Assembly (NCBI GenBank): GCA_903831295.1
Contig: CAIKXA010000103.1
Location: 1 to 32,369, forward strand
Length of the DNA stretch: 32,369 nt
DNA from: an uncultured bacterium
Lineage (GTDB): Bacteria > Planctomycetota > Phycisphaerae > Phycisphaerales > SM1A02
Direction: 5' to 3'
This document shows, in pieces, positions 2,893-32,096 of the stretch (position 1 is its first letter; each line of letters begins with the position of its first letter). The position numbers and the translations under genes are program-made. The notes under the pieces are model-generated. The model made no database searches. It saw only the letters and a list, made by a program, of their open reading frames with translations, and had not been told where the DNA came from.

Positions 2893-2898
2893 TGTGCA

Positions 2899-2904
2899 AG
2901 AGTA
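2899..2904 (-). promoter_or_regulatory. Leaderless-type -10 (TACTCT) of the M50 protease gene
   Basis: TACTCT on the minus strand, 6 bases before ATG 2892, with no Shine-Dalgarno between them. Confidence 0.55.
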
Positions 2905-3040
2905 GAAGATGTTGCCCAAATTTGTTGGCAGTTGACTTTAATTTTTGCGCCTCGGCGCCAACTCGATTTGGCCAGCGCAACATTGCATTGACGCGTGGCA
3001 TGTGTTGGAAAACCGGTGAGGCTAAATATTCAAATGTATT

Positions 3041-4636
3041 TCAGAGTGTCGCAGGAGCGGTCATTCCAGCGACGCAAGTGAAGCGAATGTTTGGTTTGTG
3101 TTGCGACCAATCCATGGTGATTGGATCGCGGTCAAGTGACACAATATCGGCGGCGTGTCCAACTTTGAGTGCGCCGCACGTGTCACTGGCGCGCAGATAT
3201 TCAGCGGCATTGCATGTGAATGCTTGAAGCGCAATTTCGGCGGAAATATTGGATTGAGCGCGTGTGATGGCGCCGCCAAACGTTGCGCCAGTGATGGCGG
3301 TTTGCATGGCCTGCAAGCAGTCGGGTTCCACGATGGGCCAGTCGCTGCCAAAGGCAAGGCGCGCGCCGGCTTGATGGAATTGTTTGAAACAAAAAAAGCG
3401 GTCCATGCGCGGGAGGCCCAGTCGCGTAAGGGCGGGGGCAGCATCAAAATATTTGTGCAGGGGCTGCATGCTCAGCCAGCGATCTTTGCAGCGGGAAATG
3501 TCGCTGGCATGCGCGGTCTGGCCGTGTTCAATGCGCAGCGACTCGCGCGCTCGCACGCCGGATTTTTCAGCGGCGTCGGCCGCGTCAAGCGCGGCGCGCA
3601 AGGCCGCGTCACCAATGGCGTGCACGGACATGCTCCAGCCACGCGAAAGTCCTTCGCGCATCCATTCGGAAAGTTTTCCTGACTCTGCCAGTTCAACGAA
3701 CATTCCTTGTTGCTCTGGCGCGTCGCAATATGGCTCAAGCATGCGCGCGGTGCGCGAACCAAGCGTGCCATCGATAAAACTTTTAAAACCAATAATGCGC
3801 AGCGCGTCGTCGGCGGTGACGCATTGACCCAGACTCCAATCCACGGGCCACTCGCGGTCAAGAATGGTGGCGCGTATGCGCAGGTTCAATTCATGGCGCA
3901 GCGGCGACAGCGTTGAAATAAGGTCGCGCGAATATTCCATGCTGCCAACGGTGGCAATTCCATGCGCTTGCAAGTGGCGCGCCGCGGCGTGCGCGGCTTG
4001 ACGCAAAGCGGCTGAATTTGGCTCTGGAACGCAGGGAACCGCTAGTTTCCACGCGGCTTGTTCCAACAGCAATCCAGTTGGATTTCCAGCCGCGTCGCGC
4101 GCGATTGTTCCGCCAACAGGATCGCGCGAAAGATCCTGGCGTTGCGCGATGATGTTCAGAGCCGCGCTGTTTACAACGCACACATGTTGATCCATACGCC
4201 ACGCAATGGCGGGGCGGTTGCCGCAACTTGCCAGCCAAGTTTGATCGGGCATGCCATCGCTGGACATGTTTCGCGCGTTCGTCGTGGTGTTGCTTTGTGA
4301 AGACACTTGCCAATTTCCTTGGTCCCAACCGCTTGCTTCGAGCCAAGCATCATTGGGCAGCGTCTCATGTTTCGCGCGAATCACGCTCTCAAATTCTTCA
4401 CGAGATGAAACGCCGGCGAGATGCGCCTGTGAAAGCGCGCGGCCGCCAAGTAGCAAATGCACATGCGAGTCAATGAACGCGGGACAGGCAAATTCGCCGC
4501 CATCTATTTCTTGGTCGACGGCGCTCGCATCATCAATGCCCACAATTTTTCCGCCATCCATGGTGATGGACTTTGCAAATGGGCGCGTTGCGTCGCCTGT
4601 CCATATTTTTTGGGCGGTGATCCGTGTGCGTGGCAT
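3041..4636 (-). CDS. YtcJ-type amidohydrolase (amidohydrolase family 3)
   Basis: The protein is 531 residues, metal-dependent hydrolase fold. The metal-binding HVH is at residues 58-60 (FIDSHVHLLLGG). Later come a MSVHAIGDAALRAAL block, an RIEHGQTAH block and the active-site aspartate in AFGSDWPIVEP near residue 432. The beta-sandwich composite domain is formed by the N-terminal 50 residues and the C-terminal VGHAADIVSLDRDP. This family includes exoenzyme-regulatory and N-substituted formamide deformylases, but substrate cannot be assigned. No signal peptide is seen, so it is probably cytoplasmic. The start is the ATG at 4636 (MPRTRITAQK), 7 bases from a -10-like TACGAT. It is divergent from the lipoprotein gene, with only 18 bases between the two ATGs. 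Confidence 0.87.
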   Translation of the reverse strand: MPRTRITAQKIWTGDATRPFAKSITMDGGKIVGIDDASAVDQEIDGGEFACPAFIDSHVHLLLGGRALSQAHLAGVSSREEFESVIRAKHETLPNDAWLEASGWDQGNWQVSSQSNTTTNARNMSSDGMPDQTWLASCGNRPAIAWRMDQHVCVVNSAALNIIAQRQDLSRDPVGGTIARDAAGNPTGLLLEQAAWKLAVPCVPEPNSAALRQAAHAAARHLQAHGIATVGSMEYSRDLISTLSPLRHELNLRIRATILDREWPVDWSLGQCVTADDALRIIGFKSFIDGTLGSRTARMLEPYCDAPEQQGMFVELAESGKLSEWMREGLSRGWSMSVHAIGDAALRAALDAADAAEKSGVRARESLRIEHGQTAHASDISRCKDRWLSMQPLHKYFDAAPALTRLGLPRMDRFFCFKQFHQAGARLAFGSDWPIVEPDCLQAMQTAITGATFGGAITRAQSNISAEIALQAFTCNAAEYLRASDTCGALKVGHAADIVSLDRDPITMDWSQHKPNIRFTCVAGMTAPATL

Positions 4637-4642
4637 CGCTTG

Positions 4643-4649
4643 TATCGTA
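4643..4649. promoter_or_regulatory. Overlapping divergent leaderless -10 elements
   Basis: TATCGT (4643-4648, plus) ends 6 bases before ATG 4655, and TACGAT (4649-4644, minus) ends 7 bases before ATG 4636. The two hexamers share five base pairs of the 7-bp TATCGTA. The whole interval between the two genes is 18 bases. Confidence 0.6.
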
Positions 4650-4654
4650 GAGCG

Positions 4655-5452
4655 ATGCGCAATCAATTTTCAATCGTGTGCAATGGACTGCTGGCGGGAT
4701 TGTTCTTTAGTGGGTTGGTGTCATGCGCCGACGACGCGCCCAAACCCAAGCTTCCAGCGGCGTTTCCCGCTCAAACAACTGCGAACGCGGGCGCGGTTTC
4801 TGCGCCAACCGGCGCGGCGACGAATGCTATTTCAACCGCGAATTCAAATGCGATTCCACCCGCGATTTCAAATGCGATTGCAACCACGAACTCAAATGCC
4901 ATTGCTCCAACCATGCCCGAGGCTGGTCCCTCCGTGGATCCGCTCACCAGTAGCGCCACTTCAAATCCGTCATTGATTGAATTGCCGTCAATCACGCTAC
5001 CCAAGCCGGCGGCGTGGACCTGGGTGAAGCCGTCAATGCAGTTTCGCACTTTGCAATATCAAGTGTGCAACCCGAGTTCAGGAAAAGTTGCGCCATGCGC
5101 GGACCTGATTGTGAGCGTGTTCAAGTTGGGCGATGGCGGCAGTGTGGATGCCAACATTGGCCGCTGGAAAAATCAATTTCAAAATGCAGATGGCGCTCCT
5201 GCGCAACCAACTCGTTCGCAGCGCGTGGTGGCTGGAGCATCCGTGACGCGCGTTGACTTGAAGGGCGCGTGGAAGGGCATGGGCATGGGCGAGGCGCAAA
5301 ATAATTCCGAGCAACTTGCCGCCGCCATCGAGTTGCCGCAAGAAACTATTTACATTCGCATGGTCGGTCCGGAGAGCACCGTGGAAGCCGCTCGAAAAGA
5401 TTTTGAAGCCATGGTGGATGGACTTACGCCGCGCGCGCCGCTTGTGAAGTGA
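4655..5452 (+). CDS. Predicted lipoprotein with an internal 8-residue repeat
   Basis: The protein is 265 residues. I do not recognise the family. It begins MRNQFSIVCNG followed by a hydrophobic stretch and the lipobox LVSC with Cys24, a type II signal, so it should be lipid-anchored in the periplasm. Residues 25-100 are low complexity, rich in Ala, Asn, Thr and Pro, and contain three tandem 8-residue units (TANSNAIP type). The C-terminal 150 residues look folded: AAWTWVKPSMQFRTLQYQV, a Cys pair at VCNPSSGKVAPCADL, and FEAMVDGLTP near the end. It resembles the small planctomycete-type lipoproteins in which a spacer holds a globular domain away from the membrane; this is inference. The ATG at 4655 is set by the lipobox distance and by TATCGT six bases upstream. 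Confidence 0.78.
   Translation: MRNQFSIVCNGLLAGLFFSGLVSCADDAPKPKLPAAFPAQTTANAGAVSAPTGAATNAISTANSNAIPPAISNAIATTNSNAIAPTMPEAGPSVDPLTSSATSNPSLIELPSITLPKPAAWTWVKPSMQFRTLQYQVCNPSSGKVAPCADLIVSVFKLGDGGSVDANIGRWKNQFQNADGAPAQPTRSQRVVAGASVTRVDLKGAWKGMGMGEAQNNSEQLAAAIELPQETIYIRMVGPESTVEAARKDFEAMVDGLTPRAPLVK
4835..4906 (+). repeat. Three tandem 24-base repeats in the lipoprotein spacer
   Basis: Three 24-base units at 4835-4858, 4859-4882 and 4883-4906 keep TCAAATGC at the same phase and encode TANSNAIP, PAISNAIA and TTNSNAIA. The units are in frame, so copy-number change would lengthen or shorten the spacer without breaking the protein. Confidence 0.75.
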
Positions 5453-5572
5453 TTCACCTGCGACGTGCACCGATTATCCGAGTGTGATGAATTTTGTTTG
5501 TCATTCGTGAGGTGATTTGCCTTGCGCAATGGTTGACGCCACGGGGAAGCGGTGAACGCAGCCACGGCGCGC

Positions 5573-5618
5573 AAAAATAAAAACGCGCGGAATGAAAACA
5601 ATTTCAATCCGCGCGTTT
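5573..5618 (-). terminator. Intrinsic terminator of the superoxide dismutase gene, possibly two-way
   Basis: An 11-bp perfect stem (5581-5591 with 5608-5618, AAACGCGCGGA/TCCGCGCGTTT) continues past an A.A mismatch into a further TGAAA/TTTCA stem with a 4-base loop. The minus strand ends with a T5-A-T5 tract. The plus-strand side ends only in TTTGGTTT, so it may weakly serve the convergent lipoprotein gene as well. Confidence 0.88.
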
Positions 5619-5635
5619 GGTTTAACTGAATCAGC

Positions 5636-6424
5636 TCACTTTGCGGCGGCGAAACGCTTGTTCACTTCGTTCCAGTTCACCACGTCCCACCAACTCTTCA
5701 AGTAATCGGCGCGGCGATTCTGGTACTTCAAGTAATACGCGTGCTCCCAAACATCCACGCCAAGAATGGGCGTGCCAAGCGTGTCAATTATGCCTTTCAT
5801 AAGCGGATTATCCTGGTTCGCGGTGCTGACTACTTCAAGCGCGCCGCCTGGCTTCACAATCAGCCACGACCAACCGCTGCCGAAACGTTTCATGCCACCG
5901 TCGGCAAGTTTGGCTTTGAAATCTTCCATGGTGCCAAAAGTTTTTGTAATGGCCGCGCTCAACTCCGCGCTTGGCGCGCCGCCGCTGCCTGCTGGCGCCA
6001 TGATTTGCCAGAACATGCTGTGGTTGAAATGTCCGCCGCCGTTGTTGCGCACCGCTCCACGAATGGCTTCTGGCAACGATGGCAGCGACGCGCACAATTC
6101 TTCGACCGTTTTATTTTGCAGATCAGCGTGGCCTTCAAGCGCCTTGTTTAAATTGTCCACATACGCCTGATGGTGCTTGGTGCGATGAATGATCATGGTC
6201 TGTGAATCAATTGATGGCTCAAGCGCGGCTTCTGGATACGGAAGACTTGGCAGTGTGAATGGCATGTGTTGCTCCTTGTGAGTTGTGGGGTGAGTGGTTG
6301 GCGCGGCGCTGCTGTTGGCCGCGAGTAAGGTTTGCGTGAGTGCCCGCGAGGAGAGCGCCGTGAACGCGCCAAGCCCAACAAGGGAATGGCGCAAAAAGCT
6401 TCGGCGGTTTGCTGCGTCGGACAT
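5636..6424 (-). CDS. sodA: Superoxide dismutase [Mn/Fe] with Tat signal and an internal start
   Basis: The protein is 262 residues. It converts superoxide to oxygen and hydrogen peroxide. Residues 7-12 (NRRSFLR) followed by a hydrophobic stretch and SSRALT form a twin-arginine signal, so this form should reach the periplasm folded. The catalytic part begins at residue 54 ([10 protein letters not shown]). Counting from there, metal ligands are His27, His82 ([11 protein letters not shown]), Asp171 and His175 ([14 protein letters not shown]). The blocks look Mn-type, but metal use cannot be proved. ATG 6424 is chosen because TATCGT ends 7 bases upstream and because the Tat motif follows. An internal ATG at 6265, with AAGGAG 6 bases upstream, would give a standard 209-residue cytoplasmic enzyme. 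Confidence 0.93.
6263..6277 (-). promoter_or_regulatory. Internal Shine-Dalgarno and ATG inside sodA
   Basis: AAGGAG (6272-6277, minus) lies 6 bases before ATG 6265, which begins [10 protein letters not shown], exactly where ordinary superoxide dismutases begin. Nearly all other starts in the window lack such a site. Confidence 0.65.
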
Positions 6425-6431
6425 GTCGCCA

Positions 6432-6437
6432 ACGATA
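6432..6437 (-). promoter_or_regulatory. Leaderless-type -10 (TATCGT) of sodA
   Basis: TATCGT on the minus strand, 7 bases before ATG 6424. Confidence 0.55.
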
Positions 6438-6556
6438 GGGTGCGGCGACGCATTGCGCCACATGTGAAACCACATTTGTTCTTCGGCCGCTCGCACAGTC
6501 ATCGGAGCGCGCTCAAATCGCATGAACTTCGCCATGAAATTGCTTCGTGGATTGCG

Positions 6557-6562
6557 TACTCT
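6557..6562 (+). promoter_or_regulatory. Leaderless-type -10 (TACTCT) of thiD2-thiE
   Basis: TACTCT, 6 bases before ATG 6569, identical in hexamer and spacing to the site before the M50 protease gene. Confidence 0.55.
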
Positions 6563-6568
6563 TGTTCC

Positions 6569-7624
6569 ATGCGAAGCGAATATCGAATTATTGACGCCGC
6601 GGGAAATCGCGCGCGCGAAGGCTTGCGAACGCTGGAGGATGTGCTTCGATTTTCGCTTGATCATGCGGATTTATTGAGCCGCGCCAAGACCTTGCGCCAT
6701 CAGTTGCGCGTGGGATTTGAGCGATTTCCTGCGGGATTGTTGGAGGCCCATCGCGATGCGGCGGGCGACGCGGGCCAACATGTGCACACGCCGCAAGAAT
6801 TTCAGCGGGGTGATGTGCGCGCAGTGGCTGTGGCCGCGGGCAAGCGCGTGATTGAGGCTCTGCGAACGCTTGAGGAAGTTGGAAAAATTATGGACGACGC
6901 GTTTGCCGGGCAAATGGCCGCCATGCGCTATGCAATGTACGACTTGGAACGCGACGCCATTCTTGCGTTTGGTTCGGCCGCGCGTTTTCAACCGCGCGTG
7001 TGCGTGTTGTTGACGGAGTCGCTGTGCAAACTACCTTGGATGGTTGTGCTTCGTGGCGCGCTAGATGGCGGCGCCGACATGATTCAAGTGCGTGAGAAAA
7101 ATATGTCCGACCGCGACTTGGTCGCGCGCGTGAAACAAATCATGGATGTGGCGCGTCCCGCCAACGCACGAGTGATGGTGAATGACCGCGTGGATATTGC
7201 GCTGGCCAGTGGCGCCGACGGCGTTCACTTGGGTACTGGTGATTTGTCCATTCGCGCCGCGCGCAAAATCGCAGGAACAAATTTGCTGATTGGCGCCAGT
7301 ACACACAACGCCGTCGAAGCGTTGGCCGCCGTCACGGAAGGTGCTGATGTGTGCGGCGTGGGCGCCATCTTTGCAACGCAACTCAAGCCCGATCGCTCGC
7401 CATGCGGCGTAGGGCTTGTGGCGGATTTCATTCGTCATTATCCAAACGCACCGCACCTTGCGATTGGTGGAATTTCCGCGCAAAACATTGAACAATTGAC
7501 CGCCGTGGGTTGCCGCGGCGTGGCGGTGAGCGGTGCGGTCTGTGGCGCAAGCAATCCCGCGGCGGTGGTCGCTCACTTGCGCGAAATTCTGTCGCCAAAA
7601 ACTTCGGAGCGCGCCGCAACATGA
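6569..7624 (+). CDS. thiE: ThiD2-ThiE fusion: HMP-phosphate kinase domain plus thiamine-phosphate synthase
   Basis: The protein is 351 residues with two domains. Residues 1-130 match the ThiD2 family: [20 protein letters not shown], then RDAAGDAG and [13 protein letters not shown]. ThiD2 phosphorylates hydroxymethylpyrimidine phosphate and is not homologous to classical ThiD. Residues 140-351 are ThiE, which joins the pyrimidine diphosphate to thiazole phosphate: QVREKN (173-178), [19 protein letters not shown] (204-222), [13 protein letters not shown] and the phosphate loop AIGGI (298-302). The fusion therefore performs two consecutive steps of thiamine synthesis in the cytoplasm. It is divergent from sodA. 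ATG 6569 is set by TACTCT six bases upstream and the ThiD2 N-terminus. Its TGA overlaps the ATG of a 14-codon ORF. Confidence 0.92.
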
Positions 7625-7665
7625 CTTTGCAGTGGTCGCAATCTTTGGAGCGCGAAATATTGTGA
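7621..7665 (+). CDS. 14-codon bridging ORF between thiE and the phnP-like gene
   Basis: [14 protein letters not shown]. Its ATG overlaps the thiE stop (ATGA at 7621-7624) and its TGA overlaps the GTG start of the next gene (GTGA at 7662-7665). It fills the gap exactly. It may only serve to carry terminating ribosomes to the next gene; no peptide function is suggested. Confidence 0.3.
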   Translation: MTLQWSQSLEREIL

Positions 7666-8483
7666 GTCAACTGAACGCCACTTTGACTCTGCTTGGAACA
7701 GGAACAAGTTCTGGCGTACCCGTGATTGGTTGCGCTTGCGCCACGTGCCAAAGCACCGATCCGCGTGACAAGCGCTTGCGCACTGGATCCATGTTGCAAT
7801 TCACCGACGCAGTAGGTCAGCCGCGTGTGATCTTGATCGATGTTCCGCCCGACCACCGCGAGCAAAGTTTGCGCGCGGGCATTGATCGCTGCGACGCGAT
7901 CCTGATCACGCACGGACATGTTGATCATGTATTTGGACTTGATGAAGTGCGCCGCTACAACGCCATGATGCGCCAGCCAATTCCCGTGTACGCCGACAAT
8001 GAAACATGGGAGCAACTTGAGCGCGTCTATCGCCACATTTTTTTCCGTAAGGAAAATAAAAATGATTCCTTCGTGGCCTCGCTCACGCAACAACGCGTTG
8101 CGCACGGCACACAACTGAACTTGCACGGAATTTCCGCCACCGCATTCACGTTGATGCACGGACGACTTCCAATTTTGGGTTGGCGATTTGATTCGCCGCG
8201 CGCTGATCCGTTGTTTCCCATCGCCTATTGCACGGACGTAAACCACATTCCGCATGAGAGTTGGCCGTTTCTGGAGGGCGTGAACACGCTCATTCTGGAC
8301 ATGTTGCGCCCGCGCGCCCATCCGACGCATTTCACATGCGATCAAGCCATTGCAACTGCCGAAAAAATAGCGGCAAAACAAACAATTTTCGTGCATATGA
8401 CCCATGATCTTTTGCATGGCGAGTTCGAGCCAATGCTCCCCTCGGGAATGCGCCTTGGCTTTGACGGCATGAAGATTTCCTAG
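7662..8483 (+). CDS. PhnP-like metallo-beta-lactamase-fold phosphodiesterase
   Basis: The protein is 273 residues from GTG 7662. It has the MBL-fold start LTLLGTGTSSGVPVIGC, a Cys-rich CACATCQ segment typical of the PhnP branch, and the dinuclear metal motif HGHVDH at residues 84-89. Later ligands are the His of LMHGRLPILGW, Asp in AYCTDVNHIP and the final His in IFVHMTHDLLHGEF. PhnP enzymes cleave phosphoribosyl cyclic phosphate, and relatives act on other cyclic phosphodiesters; no phn genes are nearby, so the substrate is open. The GTG start is inferred: GGAG lies 11 bases upstream, and the MBL fold begins five residues in. It probably forms an operon with thiE. Confidence 0.85.
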   Translation: MSQLNATLTLLGTGTSSGVPVIGCACATCQSTDPRDKRLRTGSMLQFTDAVGQPRVILIDVPPDHREQSLRAGIDRCDAILITHGHVDHVFGLDEVRRYNAMMRQPIPVYADNETWEQLERVYRHIFFRKENKNDSFVASLTQQRVAHGTQLNLHGISATAFTLMHGRLPILGWRFDSPRADPLFPIAYCTDVNHIPHESWPFLEGVNTLILDMLRPRAHPTHFTCDQAIATAEKIAAKQTIFVHMTHDLLHGEFEPMLPSGMRLGFDGMKIS

Positions 8484-8507
8484 GCTCGCTCGCCGTCAAA
8501 AATTCGC

Positions 8508-8513
8508 TAAACT
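8508..8513 (+). promoter_or_regulatory. Near-leaderless -10 (TAAACT) of atpG
   Basis: TAAACT, 9 bases before ATG 8523, so the 5' leader would be at most about three bases. Confidence 0.45.
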
Positions 8514-8522
8514 TCTTGCCCC

Positions 8523-9413: not shown

Positions 9414-9554
9414 ATTGACAAGCGCAGTTCAACGTGTGCGCCGCGATTTGCGCCACCCATGCGAACAGTTCGCGCCGCCTGCGGCACATATTCAATTCAT
9501 TATTTAAACACATCGCGTGAAGCGCGCTTGGAACAACGTGTTCGCCTGTAAAAA

Positions 9555-10022: not shown

Positions 10023-10121
10023 TATTTGATTGTCACCGCATTTGGTCCGCGGGGCAACTGTGAAAATAGAATTTCAGTCGCCGCCGCGTTTTGCCATTTG
10101 TGAAACTTGCCGTGGCATGTC

Positions 10122-10127
10122 TATGCT
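10122..10127 (+). promoter_or_regulatory. Near-leaderless -10 (TATGCT) of the DsbD-domain gene
   Basis: TATGCT, 8 bases before ATG 10136. Confidence 0.45.
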
Positions 10128-10135
10128 TTCGTTCA

Positions 10136-11077: not shown

Positions 11078-11120
11078 TTGGATTCGCATTTTCCAACGCA
11101 GTTGACCGCATCGAGTGGGC

Positions 11121-11939: not shown

Positions 11940-11953
11940 ACGTCAAGCTGAAT

Positions 11954-13177: not shown

Positions 13178-13183
13178 TACGCT
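13178..13183 (+). promoter_or_regulatory. Leaderless-type -10 (TACGCT) of the zinc-ribbon membrane protein gene
   Basis: TACGCT, 6 bases before ATG 13190; it decides this start over an upstream in-frame codon. Confidence 0.55.
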
Positions 13184-14345: not shown

Positions 14346-14351
14346 TACCAT
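14346..14351 (+). promoter_or_regulatory. Near-leaderless -10 (TACCAT) of the phosphatase-rpiB unit
   Basis: TACCAT, 9 bases before ATG 14361. Confidence 0.4.
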
Positions 14352-16926: not shown

Positions 16927-16932
16927 ATTGTA
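16927..16932 (-). promoter_or_regulatory. Leaderless-type -10 (TACAAT) of pepA
   Basis: TACAAT on the minus strand, 6 bases before ATG 16920; the closest of these boxes to the TATAAT consensus. Confidence 0.6.
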
Positions 16933-17065: not shown

Positions 17066-17071
17066 TAGGCT
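17066..17071 (+). promoter_or_regulatory. Leaderless-type -10 (TAGGCT) of mnmG
   Basis: TAGGCT, 6 bases before ATG 17078. The intervening AGGGAA is too close to the ATG to act as a normal Shine-Dalgarno. Confidence 0.5.
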
Positions 17072-19248: not shown

Positions 19249-19254
19249 TAAGTT
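19249..19254 (+). promoter_or_regulatory. Leaderless-type -10 (TAAGTT) of the first GNAT gene
   Basis: TAAGTT, 6 bases before ATG 19261. Confidence 0.5.
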
Positions 19255-21394: not shown

Positions 21395-22389
21395 ACTCGT
21401 GCAAGCGTATCCGTTCGAACGCAAACCCACCCTTCACGGCCGGAAATTTTTCCGGGACCGATTGAGCCAATTTCAATTTCCGTCATGGGGCGCTTAACTA
21501 CAAATGGTGAGTTCGATTGATCGACCGCAACTGCAGGGGAGGAGCCACGAAGTGAATTTGTGGTGGCGGGCGTTTCGAGCAGCATGTCTCCAAGCGGCCC
21601 AAATGTGTGGCCCGCCGCCAATGCTTGATCCAAAAACGCCTCAAAACAATAGGATTTTGAGCCGCCTTCGCTTTCCGCATGCACAGTGAGCACATGCGGT
21701 TTGTCATCGGACATCAGTTGCAACAAGCGGGCGTTCCAAATCTCATCGCGATTTTCCTTGGGCAGCGCCGCCTCGTCATATGTTGGCAAGTCCACCGGAA
21801 TCTGAGGCTGATCCAGCACGGACTTTCCCACGCGCGGCCGAAACGCGCGCGCAGGTCCACGGCAGTCGCTACGAAATTGAAATTGCCGCGAGCGTGCAAA
21901 GTTCAACACCCGCTCACTGCAGCGCCAACCTGGACACGCCGCGCTTTGCGGCTTCTGTCCCAAGACTTCCTCAAAGGCGTCGCATGCCAAAACCAATTGC
22001 GCTTCAAGCGCCTCATCAGAAAGTTTTTCAATGCCAACTTGCCATAGGTGATGGTCCCACGCATGCACTCCAACTTCGTGTCCAGCTTTCAGCGGCATGC
22101 GCAACTGTTCCTTGAAGTGGCGGCTGATCACGGTGCCTGGCCACAATGTTCCGCGAAACAAAATGTCGTAGCCGTACAACGATGCCGCTTGGGAGCGCAG
22201 CATCTTCAGGAAGAAAGCGGGGCGCAGAAGTCGCCACGCATGTCGACCCATGTTGTCGGGGCCAAGCGTTAAATACCAAGTGGCACGAATACCGCGCGCC
22301 TCTAAAATGCGCAGTAAACGCGGCAAACCATCACGAGTTCCGCGCACCGTATCCACATCCACACGCAGCGCAATGGGGGCAATGGCCAC
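21391..22389 (-). CDS. arnD: 4-deoxy-4-formamido-L-arabinose-phosphoundecaprenol deformylase (ArnD)
   Basis: The protein is 332 residues, about 35 longer than E. coli ArnD. It removes the formyl group from undecaprenyl-phosphate-Ara4FN, making the pathway irreversible. The NodB-like polysaccharide deacetylase fold has the ArnD-specific blocks ALRVDVDTVRGTRDGLP with metal-binding Asp, TLGPDNMGRHAWRLLRPAF, LRSQAASLYGYDILFRGTLWP, and HEVGVHAWDHHLWQ with the His ligands. The C-terminal extension after VDQSNSPFVV is low in conservation. The start is GTG 22389, 12 bases after the arnA stop, without a clear Shine-Dalgarno, so translation is probably coupled. It overlaps arnT by 4 bases. Confidence 0.92.
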   Translation of the reverse strand: MAIAPIALRVDVDTVRGTRDGLPRLLRILEARGIRATWYLTLGPDNMGRHAWRLLRPAFFLKMLRSQAASLYGYDILFRGTLWPGTVISRHFKEQLRMPLKAGHEVGVHAWDHHLWQVGIEKLSDEALEAQLVLACDAFEEVLGQKPQSAACPGWRCSERVLNFARSRQFQFRSDCRGPARAFRPRVGKSVLDQPQIPVDLPTYDEAALPKENRDEIWNARLLQLMSDDKPHVLTVHAESEGGSKSYCFEAFLDQALAAGHTFGPLGDMLLETPATTNSLRGSSPAVAVDQSNSPFVVKRPMTEIEIGSIGPGKISGREGWVCVRTDTLARV

Positions 22390-22401: not shown

Positions 22402-24447
22402 TTAGTGCGAAGAACTTCGGGACGCTGGAACTTTGTTACCCGCCGCCGCGCCCGTTGCTGGCGTGTTTGGCGCCGTCAAGTTGTGCGTCTTGGCGTGTTG
22501 GCGAATGAACCAATCCAAAGTTCGTTCCACGCTTTGACGCGTGGAAATCTTTGGCGTCCAACCTAACGCGTTCTTGGCGTTGCGAATACTTGGCGTGCGG
22601 TGCTGCACGTCCTCGTAGCCCTTGCCGTAGTAGCGGGCGCTTTCAATTTCCTCAAAGCCGGCGAACGGCGGAAAGCATGCGCGCAGAGGATGGCGATCAA
22701 AGGCCTCAACCAACATTTCCGCAAGCTCGCGAATGCTCGCCTCATTGTCTGGATTGCCAATGTTGAAAATGCCGCCAGTGGCTTTGCCATCCGTGTTCTC
22801 AATGATGCGGTACAAGCAATCCACGCCCTCGTCGACATCGGTGAAGCAGCGCTTCTGTTCGCCGCCATCCACCAAAAGAATTGGCGTGCCTTCAACCAAA
22901 TTTAAAATCAGTTGCGTGATGGCGCGAGAAGAACCAATGCGCGCTGAATCAAGCGTGTCCAAGCGTGGCCCAAGCCAGTTGAATGGACGGAACAAACTAA
23001 ATTGCAGGCCGCGTGTTGCGCCGTATGCCCAAATCACGCGGTCCAAAAGTTGCTTGGAAGCGCTGTAAATCCAGCGTTGCCGATGGATTGGCCCGGTGAC
23101 CAAGTTGCTGGTTTCCTCATCAAAGTGCTCGTCCTTGCACATGCCGTACACCTCGCTGGTGCTTGGAAAAATAATGCGCTTGTTGTATCGCACGCAGTCG
23201 CGCACCACGCGCAGATTCTCCTCAAAGTCCAACTCAAACACGCGCAATGGATTTCGCACGTACTCAATCGGCGTGGCAATGGCCACCAACGGCAGAATCA
23301 CATCGCACTTACGCACGTGGTATTCAACCCATTCGCGGTTGATGGAAACGTCGCCCTCGATAAAGTGAAAGCGGGGATGATCCGCGACGTTGCCAATGTT
23401 ATCCGAGCGCAAATCCATTCCGTAAACTTCAAAACTTTCATTCTTCAACAAGCGTTCCGTCAGATGGCTTCCAATGAAACCATTCACGCCAAGAATTAAA
23501 ATGGAAGTGGTTTTCTTTTGCGATGACAGAACGCGCTTGCCCAAGCGCATCTTCGCGACCAAGTTCATGTCTTTGGCGATCTGCGCACCGGAACTCCACA
23601 CGCCATCGGCGGGTTGTCCCTCCACAATTTCAATCGCGCCATTTCCGCACGCCACAATCATTGGATCGGCGCTAAGAATTTCGCCAGGCTGGCCCGATCC
23701 TTGCGCGGTTTTTGTGCTCCACACCATGAACTTGCGCTCGCCCGCAAAGGTGAACGCACCTGGCCACGGAAAAGCCACGGCGCGGGTTAAATTGCGTATT
23801 TCCTCGGCGGATTTGGTCCAATCAATGTTGCCGTCTTCTGGAGTGCGGCGACCAAATGAGCTGGCGTTTTTCTCTTCTTGCGGGGTGCGCGGCGCCTTGT
23901 TGGCTTTGACCAGCGGCAGCAACTCATCAAGCAAATCGCTGGTGGCTTGGCTCATGCTGGCGGTCAATGTGCGCGCGGTGTCGGCAATGTCAATCTTCAC
24001 CTTGCGCTGTCCAATGATGTCCCCGGCGTCAGCCTTGTCGCTCATGTAATGCAGAGTCACGCCAGTTTCAGTTTCGCCATTCACAAGCACCCAATTAATC
24101 GGGCAACGGCCGCGATACTTGGGAAGCATGGCTGAGTGCAAATTAATGCAACCCTTTGGAAACAACTCGCGCACTTTCGTGCCAACCATATTTCGATAGT
24201 GGCATGACAAAAGCAAATCGGCCTTCATCTCTTTGATGCGCTCAACCCAAATTGGATGGTCAAGTTTTTCTGGAGCGAACACTGGAATGCCAGCGGCCGC
24301 GGCCTCGCGCGCCACGGATGTGTACCAACCACCTTCGGATGGATCATCTCGGTGCGTGAACACCGCGACCACATCAAGACCATTTCGAATTGCTGCTTTC
24401 AGCCCCGCGGCGCCAAGTTCGTGATAAGCCAATACGACGGTCTTAAT
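22402..24447 (-). CDS. arnA: Bifunctional UDP-Ara4N formyltransferase / UDP-glucuronic acid decarboxylase (ArnA), ATT start
   Basis: The protein is 681 residues. The C-terminal domain oxidatively decarboxylates UDP-glucuronic acid; the N-terminal domain formylates UDP-Ara4N. With an ATT start at 24447 the N-terminus reads [12 protein letters not shown], aligning without gaps to E. coli ArnA. The formyltransferase residues then fall at exactly the E. coli numbers, Asn102, His104 and Asp140. The next in-frame candidate, TTG 24432, would lose the first beta strand. The frame is closed by TAA four codons before the ATT, so no ATG, GTG or other TTG is available. AAGGA ends 6 bases before ATT. Decarboxylase residues Ser431, Glu432, Tyr461, Lys465 and Arg617 are all present. 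The last 30 residues are a Thr/Ala/Ser-rich tail not found in E. coli. Confidence 0.95.
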
Positions 24448-24467
24448 GTGGTTTCCTTAAAAAAAGT
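24448..24467 (-). promoter_or_regulatory. Shine-Dalgarno before the ATT start of arnA, with a -10-like box
   Basis: AAGGA (24454-24458, minus) lies 6 bases before ATT 24447. A TACTTT box (24462-24467) just upstream could be an internal promoter giving a short leader. The 100-base gap to arnC is the only large gap inside the cluster. Confidence 0.55.
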
Positions 24468-24547
24468 ATGTGAAACAAAGTGAGATTTGATGGGCAATTC
24501 CATTTGCCAATCTAGACAGTGAACAATTTCAACCAATCAACAATCAA

Positions 24548-26730: not shown

Positions 26731-26739
26731 GAGCCAAGG

Positions 26740-26745
26740 ATGATA
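26740..26745 (-). promoter_or_regulatory. Near-leaderless -10 (TATCAT) of the arn cluster
   Basis: TATCAT on the minus strand, 9 bases before ATG 26730. No obvious PmrA-type direct repeat was seen upstream by eye. Confidence 0.5.
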
Positions 26746-26871
26746 GTGGAAATCCTTGATTTTCCCAATGGGCAGTTGGGATTTTTGATGTTTCGAAGTG
26801 CACTTTCTAGTGATCGGAACAACGACGCTTCAATTCAGTCAAGGCGTGGGTTTTTCTTTTGCGCAAATTGG

Positions 26872-26877
26872 TAGTTT
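26872..26877 (+). promoter_or_regulatory. Leaderless-type -10 (TAGTTT) of the aldose epimerase gene
   Basis: TAGTTT, 6 bases before ATG 26884. Confidence 0.5.
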
Positions 26878-26883
26878 GCTTGC

Positions 26884-27918
26884 ATGGACATCCGAACTAT
26901 CCGTTGCGCAAAGTCGCAAAGCCAACTTGTGGTTCATGCGGACGCTGGTTGCGTTGCCACCAGTTGGCAAGTGCGCGGTCAAGAAATACTGGCGTTGCCA
27001 GTGGCGCTTGCGGAGTTTTTAAAGTCGCAAAAAACGGGCGGCATTCCGCTGCTGTATCCATACGCCAATCGATTGCGCGCGGATCATTTCACGGCGGCGG
27101 GCAAAGCGGTGGACTTGTCGCGTGACGCAAACTTAAAGCGCGACGGCAACGGATTTCCCATGCACGGCTTGCTCATTCGTTGGCCGGATTGGGTGGTTAC
27201 GCAGCCCGCGCCGGATGAATTGCAGGCCAGCATTGTGTGGGGCGACCATGCGCCATTATTCGCCGCGTATCCATTTGCGCACACATTGCGGTTGCGCTGG
27301 AAGTTGGGACAGGGCAAGAATGAAAATGCGAATCAAATAGCGGATCAGATCAAGCATCCGCCGACCAATCCAAATACTGATGAACCCCCGCTTGCCAGCA
27401 TGCTGACGGTGACCACGATCATTGAAGCCGACAAGGGTCAGGATGTGCCCGTATCGTTTGGCTGGCATCCGTATTTAGTGTTACAAGATCGCTCCAATAC
27501 GAAGTTGCAGCTGCCCGCTCGTCGCGCCATTGCACTAGAGCAAAACGGTTTGCCAATTTCCAAGTCAACGCCCGCGCCTTGGTTACCCACATGCGCGCAA
27601 TCGGCGGTTGCGCCGCTGGATGATTTATTTGAGTTGGACATGCGCGGCACAAGTGGGGTAGAGCTTGGCAACGCGGCAGCAAGTCAGCTGGGTTCCATTG
27701 AAAAATCCGCGCCGACCGCCGCCATCATTGCGCCGCATCAGCGCGTTGAAATGAAATTTCTAAATGGCTATTCGTTTATGCAAATTTATTCGCCCGCAGG
27801 CGCCAACTTTGTCTGCTTTGAACCAATGACCGCCACCATTAGCGGCTTGTGTGACGGTGCCGCAGTTGTGAAAGCTGGCGACACATTCACGGCCGCGTTT
27901 GAATTGCGCGTCGCATAA
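26884..27918 (+). CDS. Aldose 1-epimerase-family protein
   Basis: The protein is 344 residues, galactose mutarotase-like beta-sandwich. Typical blocks are GGIPLLYPYANRLRADHF with the substrate-binding Asn-Arg, FPMHGLLIRWPDW with the catalytic His region, VPVSFGWHPYLVL with the second His, and FVCFEPMTATISGL with the catalytic Glu near the end. A 30-residue insertion rich in Asn and Pro (about residues 145-170) is unusual. The family interconverts alpha and beta anomers of aldoses or sugar phosphates; the sugar is not evident. There is no signal peptide. It is divergent from arnB, which may be coincidence, and convergent with a GNAT gene 24 bases away. Confidence 0.85.
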   Translation: MDIRTIRCAKSQSQLVVHADAGCVATSWQVRGQEILALPVALAEFLKSQKTGGIPLLYPYANRLRADHFTAAGKAVDLSRDANLKRDGNGFPMHGLLIRWPDWVVTQPAPDELQASIVWGDHAPLFAAYPFAHTLRLRWKLGQGKNENANQIADQIKHPPTNPNTDEPPLASMLTVTTIIEADKGQDVPVSFGWHPYLVLQDRSNTKLQLPARRAIALEQNGLPISKSTPAPWLPTCAQSAVAPLDDLFELDMRGTSGVELGNAAASQLGSIEKSAPTAAIIAPHQRVEMKFLNGYSFMQIYSPAGANFVCFEPMTATISGLCDGAAVVKAGDTFTAAFELRVA

Positions 27919-27942
27919 ATTTTTACCGCAGCAACGCCACGC

Positions 27943-28626
27943 TTACTTACGCAACTGAAATTCCGGAGGCGGCGGACATGCGGGGTTCACCCACTGAATC
28001 AGTGCCGACCACCCCGCGCTCTCCTCATCATGTGGCAAATAGCCGTGAATGGGGCGAACCACTTCCCAGCCATCTTTCAAGTGCACGGTCAACACCGGGT
28101 CCACAAGTTCACCGCGCTCAACAGCATCCACATATTGGTCCGGGGTAAAGGCATCTTTGTGTTGCGAGTATCCAGACAAGCGGCTGCCCGCCACCGAACG
28201 CCATAAATTTTCATTGCGCACAAGTTCACGAGTGATGTCAGTCAACGCGCGCGCCACGCTGTGATGTTGGTGCCGCGGATGCACCATGATGTCGGCGCAG
28301 TACAGCGAGTGGCCTTTGGGATTGTGATCTTCAAAAGTTCCGTGGGCAGTCAAAATATCCCACGAATCATCCAGATGAAAATCAATCATGTTCAATCGCA
28401 ACGTGAAATGCGCACCCGCAACTTCGCCAGTTGGAATGTGCTGCGCCACAAATTGCCCCTGCGAAAAAACCAAGTGATGTTCGGCAAGTTCTTGCGGCGT
28501 GTAAGGCACATCGTGCGGATACACCAGTGAGCAAATTTCAATAATGGCCTGCATGTCGCCAGGTTCCATCAGACGAATGTGGTAGTCGGGGTGAAGTCCG
28601 TTGGAATGATGCGTTATGTCTGGCAT
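27943..28626 (-). CDS. GNAT-fold acetyltransferase-like protein
   Basis: The protein is 227 residues. The N-terminus HIRLMEPGDMQAIIEICSLVYP is a typical GNAT beginning. The central part LYCADIMVHPRHQHHSVARALTDITRELV corresponds to the acetyl-CoA-binding motif, although the glycines usual in R/Q-x-x-G-x-G/A are replaced (RHQHHSVARAL). The C-terminal part (GWEVVRPIHGYLPHDEESAGW) is longer than in simple GNATs. Substrate is unknown, and activity cannot be taken for granted given the altered loop. ATG 28626 is chosen over an upstream GTG because TATGAT ends 6 bases before it. Confidence 0.72.
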   Translation of the reverse strand: MPDITHHSNGLHPDYHIRLMEPGDMQAIIEICSLVYPHDVPYTPQELAEHHLVFSQGQFVAQHIPTGEVAGAHFTLRLNMIDFHLDDSWDILTAHGTFEDHNPKGHSLYCADIMVHPRHQHHSVARALTDITRELVRNENLWRSVAGSRLSGYSQHKDAFTPDQYVDAVERGELVDPVLTVHLKDGWEVVRPIHGYLPHDEESAGWSALIQWVNPACPPPPEFQLRK

Positions 28627-28632
28627 GTTTGC

Positions 28633-28638
28633 ATCATA
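28633..28638 (-). promoter_or_regulatory. Leaderless-type -10 (TATGAT) of the second GNAT gene
   Basis: TATGAT on the minus strand, 6 bases before ATG 28626. The 250 bases from here to the next gene hold no other feature I can support apart from a TAAACT box and a 5-codon ORF at 28853-28883. Confidence 0.55.
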
Positions 28639-28884
28639 AGCGCGCGCATTGTTGCTATCGTTCACAACATAATGCGCAACAAAGCAGGCGTGCTCAAACG
28701 GACCGCCGAGGGTCTGGCCGCAAGAAATCCGTGAGCTTTGATTCGACCAGTTTGATTGTGAATGTGTTCGCAGGAATTGTGGGCGTGGAATAGTTCATGT
28801 AGGGAAAGAAGCAGTAGAAAGTAATTCCACCGATTTCCGACGCGTGTGCGGCTAAACTTGTTCACATGCATGTCGCCGTGTGAC

Positions 28885-28890
28885 TATCTT
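28885..28890 (+). promoter_or_regulatory. Leaderless-type -10 (TATCTT) of the beta-repeat membrane protein gene
   Basis: TATCTT, 7 bases before ATG 28898. Confidence 0.5.
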
Positions 28891-28897
28891 TGTCCGC

Positions 28898-29371
28898 ATG
28901 AATGAAATGCAGAAACAAATCGCGTCGTTGCAAAGCCGTGTCAAGTATCAGCGCCTGCTCAACATAGTGTTGAGCGTGTTGGTGGTCATGTTGTGCGTGG
29001 GTGCCATGAAGCCTTACGGAGTGATCACATGCGATGGCTGGAATGTGCAGGACAAAAATGGCAAGGCGCGCATCACGGCTTTCACGCGTGACGATGGCGG
29101 GGCGTGCATGTGGTGGTACGACATGAACGGCCGCGTGCGCATGGACGCAACGACCCGAGTGAATGGCTACGCGGGCTTGCAGGTGTATGACAAGGCCGGC
29201 AAGCAACGCGTGGCCACGTTCTCACGTGATGACGGCGGAGCGGGTGTTGCCTGGAGCGACGCGAATGAAAAAGTTCGTATCACAGCCGGAAACAATGCTG
29301 ACGGGTTGGTGATGCTGCCCACAAAAGATTTGGAAATTGCGCCCGCGAAAGATTTATCCGACGCAAAATAA
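28898..29371 (+). CDS. Membrane-anchored protein with short beta-strand repeats
   Basis: The protein is 157 residues, no named family recognised. Residues 1-20 (MNEMQKQIASLQSRVKYQRL) look like a short coiled-coil helix. Residues 21-40 are one membrane helix (LNIVLSVLVVMLCVGAM). The rest, outside the cytoplasm by inference, is built from repeats: KARITAFTRDDGGACMWW, RVRMDATTRVNGYAGLQV, KQRVATFSRDDGGAGVAW and KVRITAGNNADGLVML. Each is a basic start, a strand, an acidic turn and a second strand, alternating with D-x-N/A-G-K links. This layout resembles small stalk-like proteins common in Planctomycetota. ATG 28898 is supported by the TATCTT box. It is convergent with the transglutaminase-like gene, 16 bases away. 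Confidence 0.72.
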   Translation: MNEMQKQIASLQSRVKYQRLLNIVLSVLVVMLCVGAMKPYGVITCDGWNVQDKNGKARITAFTRDDGGACMWWYDMNGRVRMDATTRVNGYAGLQVYDKAGKQRVATFSRDDGGAGVAWSDANEKVRITAGNNADGLVMLPTKDLEIAPAKDLSDAK

Positions 29372-29387
29372 TTGCGCGTGGAGCGCA

Positions 29388-30650
29388 TCAACGCAGTGGT
29401 TGTGCTTCCGCATTCATAATGTCTGTGCTCGCGCCAACATGCCCCATGTCCCAGTCGGACGTGGTCTCTATCAAAACCATTTGCGTGCCGTTCACATTGA
29501 TGCGCTGCTCGCCTTCAAACATGTCGCAACCAACTGCCAGGCACATGTGCGGCGTGGTGTTGTTCATGCAGTACACCAACGCCACTGGCGTGCGTTCGTC
29601 CACACTGCGGATAAGCGTTGCCAACAGCAAACTTTTCGAATCGCAGTCGCCGCCGTCAAGCAAAACTTCCCCAGGCGTGCGCAAGCCGCAGCGATAATTT
29701 CCATCCTTCACGGAGTCATTGCGTCCATCATCCACTTTGCGATAGGGAATTGCGTTCTGCACAAAACTAGTCAGCGCCTCAATGCGTTGGCGCGCGCTTG
29801 GCCTTCCTCGTTGCCCGCTCCAATAGGTGTCAATCACCGCGTTTGCAACATCGCGCACTTGCGCCAAGGAGCTATCAAGAATCCATTGATGATCCGGCGA
29901 GATGCTTTGCGCCGAGCAAATAATTCCGTGCTGGGCCAAAGTTTCCGTGATTGCTTTTTCAATCGCCGCCTGCGAGCCATCGCCAACTCGATACGCCACG
30001 GAATCAAGCGCATGCTCTGGAAATCCAAAGTAGCGCTCAAACGAGTCGGCCCACGCCTCATTCACCTTGGCGGAAATACGGATGGTCATGGGCGTGCAGT
30101 CGGCGCGAAGAAACTTTGTGTCGCCTTCGCGCTTGGCAATGCACGCTTGGTCATCGGTCCACAAAGAAAATTGTAAATTTTGCAAACGCGAACGCGGCGC
30201 CAGAAAAATATGTTGCGATTCGTACCACGCGCGGAAGTCCGCATTTTGTGTCAGGGCGAGCGCGCTCTCAAGCGCGGCGGTGGCGGATTCGGCCGTGACC
30301 GGAGCGGCGGGGGTTGTGTTGTCGTTTGTGTTTCCAGCCGCGCCACCAGTTGCTGGAACAGTGGTCGCGCCAGTTGCCGTTGTGGCCGCGGGCGCAATCT
30401 CACGCGCAACCGTGCGAGTCATGGAGCCTTTGCGAATCGGCCGCTTGCGATCCGGTGAACGCATGCCGCTTGGTGAGGACATGGGCGTTGCAGTTTGATT
30501 TGCAGTGACCGTGGTGGCTTGCGTTGTTGAAGTGGGCGCTGGTTCAGTTGGTTCCAAGGCAAAACAAGAACGCATCACTTCACATGGCGCATTCAGCGCG
30601 AACGTGGCGACCAAGATCGCGGTGTACAAAGTTGGCGTGTTGTTTTTCAT
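29388..30650 (-). CDS. Exported transglutaminase-like (papain-fold) protein
   Basis: The protein is 420 residues. Residues 1-25 form a signal peptide (TLYTAILVATFALNA). A 100-residue Thr/Ala/Pro-rich spacer follows, then a folded region from about residue 135. The catalytic core shows Cys336 in LLDGGDCDSKSLLLATLI, His368 in TTPHMCLAVG and an acidic third residue in LIETTSDWDMG, matching the Cys-His-Asp/Glu triad order of bacterial transglutaminase-like cysteine proteases. Preceding blocks NAIPYRKVDDGR and RTPGEVLL fit that family. It may crosslink or cleave proteins in the periplasm; which one is unknown. The ATG at 30650 is preferred to an in-frame GTG five codons upstream. No good TAnnnT box or Shine-Dalgarno is seen. 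Confidence 0.8.
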   Translation of the reverse strand: MKNNTPTLYTAILVATFALNAPCEVMRSCFALEPTEPAPTSTTQATTVTANQTATPMSSPSGMRSPDRKRPIRKGSMTRTVAREIAPAATTATGATTVPATGGAAGNTNDNTTPAAPVTAESATAALESALALTQNADFRAWYESQHIFLAPRSRLQNLQFSLWTDDQACIAKREGDTKFLRADCTPMTIRISAKVNEAWADSFERYFGFPEHALDSVAYRVGDGSQAAIEKAITETLAQHGIICSAQSISPDHQWILDSSLAQVRDVANAVIDTYWSGQRGRPSARQRIEALTSFVQNAIPYRKVDDGRNDSVKDGNYRCGLRTPGEVLLDGGDCDSKSLLLATLIRSVDERTPVALVYCMNNTTPHMCLAVGCDMFEGEQRINVNGTQMVLIETTSDWDMGHVGASTDIMNAEAQPLR

Positions 30651-30722
30651 AATTCGTTCTTTCACAGTTTCAATTGTGCGTCACGCATGGCTGCCATTGC
30701 GCTAGACCTTCAAGTATTCAGT

Positions 30723-32084
30723 TTAGCACTTCGAACCAATTGTCAGAAATGGTTTGATGAACAAAAGAATTGCAACGGCGGCGATTGAGGCAAGGATTGC
30801 ATTCAAGCCTCCGTCCATCACGCTGGCCACAATGCTCCAGCCAGCAAGCGCCATATAAATAATTGGCGTCACTGGATACAACGGCACGCGAAAGGGGCGC
30901 GGCGCGTCGGGCATGGTTCGGCGTAGAACAAGCACCGCGGCAACGGACAGAGACGAGAAAAAATTCACCAGCACCGTGAGCAGCCCAAGAATGTCATCAA
31001 GATTTCCAATCGCAAGCGACGCAAGGCTGGCGGTCGTGACCACAACAAGCGCGCGCGTAGGAACTCCATTGTCTTTGCGAACACCCGTCCACGCAGGAAT
31101 CTCGTGCGCGTGCGCCATGGACTCAAGTATGCGAGCGCCAGTGATCACGCCTGAAACAAGCGTTGAAAAAAAGAGCAGCGCAATCACGCCTGTCATGGCG
31201 TCTCCCATTGCTGTTCCAAAAATCAAGCGCGCGGCAACGCCACCAATGGCTTGCATTGGCGCGCCATTTGTTTCAAGCATGGCGGCCGGATCAATTACGC
31301 GCAGAAACACAAGATTCACGCCGATATACAGCGCAAAGACCAGCACGATTGCGCCAATGATGGATAGCGGAACATTGCGACCTGGCCGCTTCATGTCGCC
31401 CGCAATATCCGCGCCAGTGGACCAACCCAGATATGCGAAGCTGACAACAAGCGTTGCGCTTGCCACGGCGCCAGAAATAATTCCTGGATGCGTGACGGCC
31501 TCTGTCAAAACAGGCGCGACCATGCGCGATTGGATTGGCCAGAAAAGTCCCGCGCACACAAACACAGCCACAAATCCAATTTTAATAATCGACAGCGCTG
31601 TGTTGAATTTGTAACCCGCATGTAGTCCAAATAGTTGCGACACGAACGCGGCGGCAATAGTGAGCGCGGCAATCAGGTTTATATTTAGCGGTGTGGGAAG
31701 AAGTTGGTTCACATATTGCGCCAACAGCAATCCCACAACCGCAAGCGAAAGAAAGTAGCCGCACAAAATAGTGACCATAGCCACCAAATATCCGGTGGTG
31801 CGCCCAAATGCGCGGCGCGCAAATTCAACGCTGCCGCCAGAGCATGGAATCATTGCGCCAAGTTCTGCAAGCGATAGGCCGCCACACAAAGCGAGTATTC
31901 CGCCAATGATCCAAGCGGCAAGAATATTTTCCGCGGTGCCAAGCTTGGCGCCAAATTGTCCGGTGAGTGAAAATATTCCGCTGCCCACCATGGATGCGAC
32001 CACAATTCCAGTTGCGCCAATGGAACCAATCACGCGAAAGTGATCTGGTTGTTTATGTTCGCTGTTCAGTTGCGTACTGCTCAT
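30723..32084 (-). CDS. APC-superfamily amino acid permease
   Basis: The protein is 453 residues with about 12 hydrophobic segments. The first helix carries the substrate-binding loop GATGIVVASMVGSGIFSLTG, and helix 6 carries AYLGWSTGADIAGDMKRPGRNVP, the two signatures of the APC (LAT-like) group of the LeuT fold. GGLSLAELGAMIPCSGGSVEFARRAFG in helix 2-3 is also typical. It is a secondary transporter of the inner membrane, probably for amino acids; specificity is not visible. ATG 32084 has TAATCT ending 6 bases before it. There are 72 bases to the transglutaminase-like gene downstream, so they may share a transcript. Confidence 0.92.
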   Translation of the reverse strand: MSSTQLNSEHKQPDHFRVIGSIGATGIVVASMVGSGIFSLTGQFGAKLGTAENILAAWIIGGILALCGGLSLAELGAMIPCSGGSVEFARRAFGRTTGYLVAMVTILCGYFLSLAVVGLLLAQYVNQLLPTPLNINLIAALTIAAAFVSQLFGLHAGYKFNTALSIIKIGFVAVFVCAGLFWPIQSRMVAPVLTEAVTHPGIISGAVASATLVVSFAYLGWSTGADIAGDMKRPGRNVPLSIIGAIVLVFALYIGVNLVFLRVIDPAAMLETNGAPMQAIGGVAARLIFGTAMGDAMTGVIALLFFSTLVSGVITGARILESMAHAHEIPAWTGVRKDNGVPTRALVVVTTASLASLAIGNLDDILGLLTVLVNFFSSLSVAAVLVLRRTMPDAPRPFRVPLYPVTPIIYMALAGWSIVASVMDGGLNAILASIAAVAILLFIKPFLTIGSKC

Positions 32085-32090
32085 GGTGTC

Positions 32091-32096
32091 AGATTA
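32091..32096 (-). promoter_or_regulatory. Leaderless-type -10 (TAATCT) of the APC permease gene
   Basis: TAATCT on the minus strand, 6 bases before ATG 32084. Its intact form means any foreign junction at the window end lies beyond 32096. Confidence 0.55.

Follow-up and report, generated by a model that had tools for sequence, protein, structure and literature searches.

Within a 32,369-nucleotide stretch of DNA from an uncultured planctomycete (contig CAIKXA010000103.1 of assembly GCA_903831295.1; hereafter the window), the hexamer TAnnnT recurs a few bases before the ATG of many genes, which raises the question of whether this box is a promoter element that sets leaderless starts and how widely the lineage relies on it. 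The best explanation as a whole, to which we assign a probability of about 0.9 from the sequence evidence below, is that TAnnnT 6–7 bases before the ATG serves housekeeping-type promoters as their −10 element, setting leaderless starts that coexist with Shine-Dalgarno (SD)-led initiation. The first transcribed base would be the A of the start codon, yielding an mRNA without leader or SD site whose translation presumably relies on the 5′-terminal AUG or GTG being recognized directly, and boxes at 8–13 bases would give leaders of a few bases. No TTGACA-like −35 element is seen at these promoters, and in some head-to-head gene pairs a single symmetric TAnnnTA may serve both genes. The sequence itself shows the position and enrichment of the box, its near-restriction to genes that lead a transcription unit, its conservation, its presence before RNase P RNA and the spacing of head-to-head pairs; where transcripts begin, which polymerase and sigma factor act and how translation is initiated are inferred.

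The window corresponds to C103, one of the 120 contigs in a genome bin of 2.48 Mb that is 84% complete. A 16S match was not found in the window's own bin; its nearest named relatives by mnmG were lake bins (e.g. 'Phycisphaerales bacterium Baikal-deep-G174', 94% protein identity), and an mnmG tree of 77 rows grouped the window with Phycisphaerales records. The host was treated as a freshwater Phycisphaerales planctomycete (Planctomycetota). Independent DNA consisted of 40 stretches outside the window, amounting to 532 kb (21% of the genome) and 411 genes. Genes were classed as first-type (first in a transcription unit) when divergent from their neighbor or separated by a same-strand gap of more than 20 bp, and as internal when the gap was 20 bp or less. 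Expected counts of TAnnnT were taken as the mean and maximum over the 59 alternative ways of placing T, T and A in a hexamer. Start-neutral counts accepted any ATG at −300 to +60 of the coding-only start, and SD cores were pieces of AGGAGG of at least four bases, sought 3–12 bases before boxed window starts. An unsupervised mixture model of starts was abandoned, as it drifted to coding-sequence motifs in this genome.

Re-measurement of 18 window starts placed TAnnnT at 6–7 bases in 13 and at 8–9 in five (Table 1). An earlier analysis of the window, the sequence-only reading, had listed 13 starts at 6 or 7 and four (atpG, the DsbD-domain gene, the phosphatase gene and arnB) at 8–9, and all were recovered as claimed. 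It had also described these starts as free of SD sites, in agreement with the SD cores found here at 0/18 boxed starts. In the start-neutral count, strict boxes (6–7) preceded 13 of the 32 called window genes against a permuted mean of 2.0 and maximum of 6, which upholds the argument that 13 hits at two adjacent spacings exceed chance. The statement that most genes are boxed was correct within the window on a wide criterion (18 boxed starts at 6–9 among 32 called genes) and incorrect on the strict one (13/32).

Outside the window, the box was found at 6–7 before 63 of 411 genes (permuted mean 19.8, maximum 36), with a sharp peak at 6. The profile of the 264 first-type genes contained 39 boxes at spacing 6 and 15 at 7, with a shoulder to ∼12, over a background of 1–8 per spacing at 0–5 and 13–30. 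A flat distance distribution, named in the sequence-only reading as its refuting outcome, was not found in this 21% sample of the genome, where the distances peaked at 6. A motif-free scan of the first-type genes ranked TAnnnT at spacing 6 top of ∼19,840 combinations of pattern and spacing (39/264 vs 4.8 expected, z 14.9); the same scan of the 95 genes with gaps of 20 bp or less gave a best z of 5.6, with TAnnnT outside the 14 best patterns. Boxes before these operon-internal genes were near background (5/95, permuted mean 3.5), and those before divergent genes were not (27/106 vs a permuted mean of 7.2).

These counts also bear on how common leaderless starts are. Strict boxes at 6–7 preceded 54 of the 264 first-type genes (permuted mean 14.3), an excess of ∼16%. 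At 6–13 the count was 97/264, with a permuted mean of 54.9 and 29 occurrences of the same pattern at 14–21, giving an excess of 20–29% of first-type genes depending on the background used. The window was richer in strict boxes than the DNA outside it (12/27 vs 54/264 first-type genes, Fisher p = 0.008); it is thus an upper-tail sample, and 'most genes' does not transfer to the whole genome. Controls processed through one pipeline, which admitted ATG and GTG starts and counted SD cores 4–10 bases before the start, gave 73/265 boxed genes in this genome (mean 23.5), 22/115 in the same-genus genome G014 (mean 5.4), 12/81 in the Deinococcus radiodurans plasmid MP1 (mean 2.7) and 4/89 in Escherichia coli K-12 (mean 5.6). 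About a third of D. radiodurans genes are reported as leaderless in the accessible part of PMC12340547, yet only 12/81 were boxed on MP1, so the strict criterion probably misses leaderless genes, and this genome lies in the same range.

The same data speak to the stronger proposal, made in the sequence-only reading, that most genes of the lineage use leaderless initiation by default. Undercounting by the strict box favors it, and weak boxes and wrong starts would conceal further cases; however, besides the modest excess of boxes, SD cores were present at 42/265 first-type and 20/94 internal genes, where controls gave 6 and 2. An intact anti-SD tail (CCTCC) was likewise seen at the end of the 16S in 12/12 relatives read, including five from the same genus (a 16S match was present in 19 of 31 genomes). 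SD cores were more frequent still in E. coli (35/89 first-type, 27/50 internal). A default of this kind is therefore unlikely. The two modes very probably coexist, with leaderless initiation at about a fifth or more of first-type genes and the rest SD-led or unclassified.

Relatives keep both the box and its distance, and the reading frames are conserved as well. Of 17 box genes tested, 16 gave a total of 64 ortholog rows, taken from genomes of the same genus and from named loci that are nearly identical; all rows kept the ATG and had TAnnnT at 6–11, with a spacing identical to that of the window in 52/64 and within one base of it in 63/64. Among genes with spacing 6 (36 rows), identity was 97–100% at the three fixed letters of the box (T, A and T) and only 53–61% at positions −4 to −1. 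A spacer of constant length and drifting sequence is what would be expected if it were never transcribed.

A wider survey of mnmG examined 75 of 80 loci, five partial or broken ones being excluded. A candidate start was present in 69 loci, of which 45 had TAnnnT at 5–11 (mean 9.9); spacing 6 accounted for 26, and the boxed loci often had TATCCT and started with ATG (32) or GTG (13). At 6–7, 28 were observed against a permuted mean of 2.7 and a permuted maximum of 27, which comes near the observed count since the permuted set includes shifted sub-patterns of TATCCT, making the mean the fairer null. When mnmG itself was removed from these loci, the count at 6–7 exceeded the permuted mean in 10/10 clades and the permuted maximum in 5/10. 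A clear peak was not found in 100-kb samples of four genomes of the order (G050, G037, G042 and G065), one of the same class (G165) and three of other planctomycete families (G111, G140 and G161), and the trait is thus patchy. A sample of G028, from another family (L142–L151), had its TAnnnT peak at spacing 5 (12/106) instead of 6.

An untranslated RNA provided a calibration of the box. The 5′ end of RNase P RNA is the transcript start in other bacteria. Upstream of the model 5′ ends in the order (the best 30 loci of 59 genomes with a match, less one with a cut flank), TAnnnT was located at 6–7 bases in 17/29 loci (mean 1.2, maximum 10) and at 5–10 in 24/29 (mean 3.5, maximum 15). Of 29 loci from other planctomycete groups, again after exclusion of one with a cut flank, two had the box at 6–7 (mean 0.8) and 13 at 5–10 (mean 3.4), mostly at 8–9. 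This position, before an RNA that has no start codon, links the box to transcription beginning seven bases further downstream, which for genes corresponds to the A of the ATG. The 54 boxes outside the window also had a weak preference for G two bases before the box and for T after it.

The divergent amidohydrolase and lipoprotein genes of the window present the most compact arrangement. Their start codons (4636 on the minus and 4655 on the plus strand) are 18 bp apart, the whole intergenic region is 4637–4654, and their boxes share 5 bp within TATCGTA. Amidohydrolase matches were present in 98 of 101 genomes searched; among the best 30 loci of the family, window copy included, 13 had a divergent boxed partner 16–25 bp away; L340, whose boxed partner lies at 67 bp, was left out of this count. 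All 13 partners matched the window lipoprotein, itself included (blastp E ≤ 4e-45). The 13 loci span four genus labels (g1, g128, g144 and g13), across which the amidohydrolases are down to ∼46–50% identical; in the three g144 loci the amidohydrolase box was at 12. Pairs of the form CAT..ATG with boxes at 6–9 on both sides and gaps of 10–60 bp numbered 6/510 in this genome, 18/1548 in named loci and 9/173 in genus loci, vs 0/288 in G014, 0/54 in E. coli, 1/59 in MP1 and 0/101 in other planctomycetes, counts that include non-gene open frames and survey loci that are partly mutually homologous. In published bidirectional promoters with a shared −10, 18 bp is the commonest distance between opposite transcript starts (accessible parts of PMC12825309 and PMC10268837), and the 17–21 positions that separate the first bases of the start codons in the genus are as expected for leaderless transcripts from a shared −10 promoter. 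With start codons 16–25 bp apart over one box, that box would fix the start codons of both genes. In this order of planctomycetes, one symmetric seven-base box (TAnnnTA) can probably be promoter, transcript-start and start-codon selector for two opposite genes, the whole intergenic region being reduced to 16–20 bp and the upstream promoter DNA of each gene falling within its partner's coding sequence.

Two other close divergent arrangements were observed in the survey. In L020, L026, L030 and L061, a second pair has 18 bp between its start codons, with boxes at 6 and 7 that share a TAGTGTA-like sequence. In L018, L040, L048, L059 and L068, frames of pepA and mnmG length are 25–32 bp apart with boxes on both sides, the corresponding distance in the window being 157 bp.

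A different account would make the hexamer an RNA-level element, bound by the ribosome or by ribosomal protein S1 within a normal leader, rather than a promoter. S1 domains were present in 16/16 genus genomes, including a six-S1-domain protein in the window's own genome (a 589-aa frame, G000 C72), and IF3 in 15/16; moreover, the AT-rich bias before planctomycete starts has been ascribed to leaderless mRNA and/or S1 (PMC5397173, accessible part). This account is nevertheless very improbable, as the same box stands at the same distance before untranslated RNase P RNA, is near background at operon-internal genes, which also need ribosomes, is shared in both directions by head-to-head genes, and is followed by a spacer whose sequence drifts. 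That ATGs were merely picked for following a chance TAnnnT is contradicted as a full explanation and hardly credible, given that start-neutral counts against permuted patterns keep the peak in independent DNA and that relatives retain box and spacing, although starts were partly chosen by the box, in-frame alternatives exist (e.g. in sodA) and such selection, in a window that is an upper-tail sample, still helps to account for the high rate there. Leaderless transcription is well supported by the position of the peak, its near-restriction to first-type genes, conservation, the calibration on RNase P RNA and the distances within head-to-head pairs. The part of the sequence-only reading that survives is that the box behaves as a −10 element that would place the start at the A of the ATG; the part left without support is leaderless initiation as the default for the lineage.

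Several observations weigh against the reading of the box as a leaderless −10 element. The strict excess covers only 16–29% of first-type genes. The RNase P locus of the window's own genome (G000) had no TAnnnT at the expected distance, and G050, of the same family, had no peak in 100 kb (2/60, mean 1.3). A −35 element was not found: at least four matches to TTGACA occurred at 5/54 boxes vs 33/176 control boxes. A C at −1 was considered as an initiator and dropped, being equally common at operon-internal starts, and so it provides no evidence of a start site. The ortholog rows are partly non-independent, some coming from near-identical genomes (L005 and L172 are alike before arnB), and genes and starts came from a simple caller of our own, by which some genes were missed or truncated.

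Where the consequences of the boxes for start codons were examined, in sodA and in the lipoprotein gene at 4655, they chose a Tat-signal start and a lipobox signal-peptide start, respectively, in line with the earlier suggestion that boxes can be used to fix start codons. The sodA gene (5636–6424, minus strand) appears to have two starts. The box-chosen start at 6424 opens a signal with RRSFL, which we take to be the twin-arginine translocation (Tat) motif, and the mature enzyme, with its Sod_Fe domains, begins at a second, in-frame ATG (6265) that has AGGAG six bases before it. Of 42 superoxide dismutase (SOD) loci, the three without the mature motif were excluded. Tat signal, box and SD site occurred together in 16 of the remaining 39, including 14/14 genus loci; five had the Tat signal and SD site without the box, and of the other 18 the mature start was preceded by an SD core in 14 and lacked one in four. 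This arrangement suggests that one gene may yield an exported form from a leaderless-type start and a cytosolic form from an internal SD start. Among openly accessible papers, the search for such double starts led only to work on other genes.

Table 1. TAnnnT boxes and the internal SD site of the window, with distance to the start codon and state in aligned relatives.
Element	Position	Strand	Start and gene	Relatives
TACTCT	2899..2904	-	6 nt before ATG 2892, peptidase M50 (Pfam M50)	spacing 6 in 7/7
TACGAT	4644..4649	-	7 nt before ATG 4636, amidohydrolase; overlaps divergent gene's box	spacing 7 in 7/7
TATCGT	4643..4648	+	6 nt before ATG 4655, lipoprotein (lipobox LVSC)	6 or 7 in 7/7
TATCGT	6432..6437	-	7 nt before ATG 6424, Tat-signal superoxide dismutase	6-9 in 14/14 same-genus loci, window's included
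AGGAG SD site	6272..6276	-	6 nt before internal in-frame ATG 6265, mature SOD form	
TACTCT	6557..6562	+	6 nt before ATG 6569, ThiD2/ThiE fusion (thiDE)	no aligned relatives
TAAACT	8508..8513	+	9 nt before ATG 8523, atpG	box kept in 2/2
TATGCT	10122..10127	+	8 nt before ATG 10136, DsbD_N domain gene	box kept in 2/2
TACGCT	13178..13183	+	6 nt before ATG 13190, zinc-ribbon protein (by eye; no Pfam match)	2/2, spacer diverged
TACCAT	14346..14351	+	9 nt before ATG 14361, low-molecular-weight (LMW) phosphatase	2/2
TACAAT	16927..16932	-	6 nt before ATG 16920, pepA (M17)	spacing 7 in sole relative
TAGGCT	17066..17071	+	6 nt before ATG 17078, mnmG	3/3 close relatives
TAAGTT	19249..19254	+	6 nt before ATG 19261, GNAT (GNAT1)	2/2
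TACGCT	21404..21409	-	9 nt before ATG 21394; absent from the earlier list	6/6
TATCAT	26740..26745	-	9 nt before ATG 26730, DegT/ArnB aminotransferase (arnB)	4/4
TAGTTT	26872..26877	+	6 nt before ATG 26884, aldose epimerase	spacing 7 in 5/5
TATGAT	28633..28638	-	6 nt before ATG 28626, GNAT2 of the earlier list (no Pfam match)	5/5, as TATAAT
TATCTT	28885..28890	+	7 nt before ATG 28898, beta-repeat protein of the earlier list (no Pfam match)	5/5
TAATCT	32091..32096	-	6 nt before ATG 32084, APC permease	spacing 6 in 3/4, 9 in 1/4

Elsewhere in the window, a formyltransferase/epimerase fusion gene (22402–24447, minus strand) has ATT where 6/6 aligned relatives have ATG after AAGGA, which is either a rare start codon or a sequence error.

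Among openly accessible papers, with preprints and the all-phyla Figure S7 of PMC12340547 outside that scope, no earlier report was found of leaderless TAnnnT starts in Phycisphaerales, and within the same openly accessible literature, preprints again outside, none was found of head-to-head leaderless pairs in bacteria; in its accessible part, a paper on an archaeon (PMC6640164) contains the terms leaderless, bidirectional promoter and divergent transcription together. The box could be used to correct gene starts in many lake planctomycete bins, as it did for sodA and the lipoprotein gene. One order is added to the patchy map of leaderless initiation, beside planctomycete samples that lack the peak, so that gain and loss become testable. 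The head-to-head pairs provide a natural and compact setting in which to test two-way promoters, and sodA, with its double start, may make an exported and a cytosolic enzyme from one gene by way of two modes of initiation.

The closest known counterparts are the TA-led leaderless genes of Zheng et al. 2011 (PMC3160421), in which TANNNT lies ∼12 bp before the start codon and is read as a −10 box. As far as the accessible part of that paper extends, the likeness lies in a TANNNT near the start that is above chance, free of SD sites and concentrated at first-type genes; it describes leaderless genes as rarer where operon-distal genes are common, and its groups cover 207 of 953 genomes. Planctomycetes are absent from its list of leaderless groups and from its main text, whereas the present case is a planctomycete order. 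The −10 motif adjacent to open reading frames in Deinococcus-Thermus, where TANNNT was tested experimentally as the −10 for leaderless mRNA (PMC12340547, accessible part), resembles ours in its sequence, in coexisting genes with ribosome-binding sites and in its spacing requirement, but belongs to a different phylum; the present case has a frequent TATCCT form in mnmG and head-to-head sharing of one box. One planctomycete species was placed among low-SD species by Nakagawa et al. 2017 (PMC5397173), who read the bias as leaderless mRNA and/or S1; a box, a spacing or gene-level evidence, as given here, was not found in the parts of that paper covered. Classical SD-led genes differ from the 18 boxed starts in having an SD core, which is present at other genes of this genome. 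In the shared symmetric −10 promoters of PMC12825309 and PMC10268837 (accessible parts of both), opposite transcript starts are most commonly separated by 18 bp over one −10 element, a layout that the boxes and start codons of the 13 loci would fit; here it is the start codons themselves that lie 16–25 bp apart, and the accessible part of PMC12825309 does not contain the word leaderless. Leaderless TANNNT starts are thus of a known kind, while the lineage and the two-way arrangement look new.

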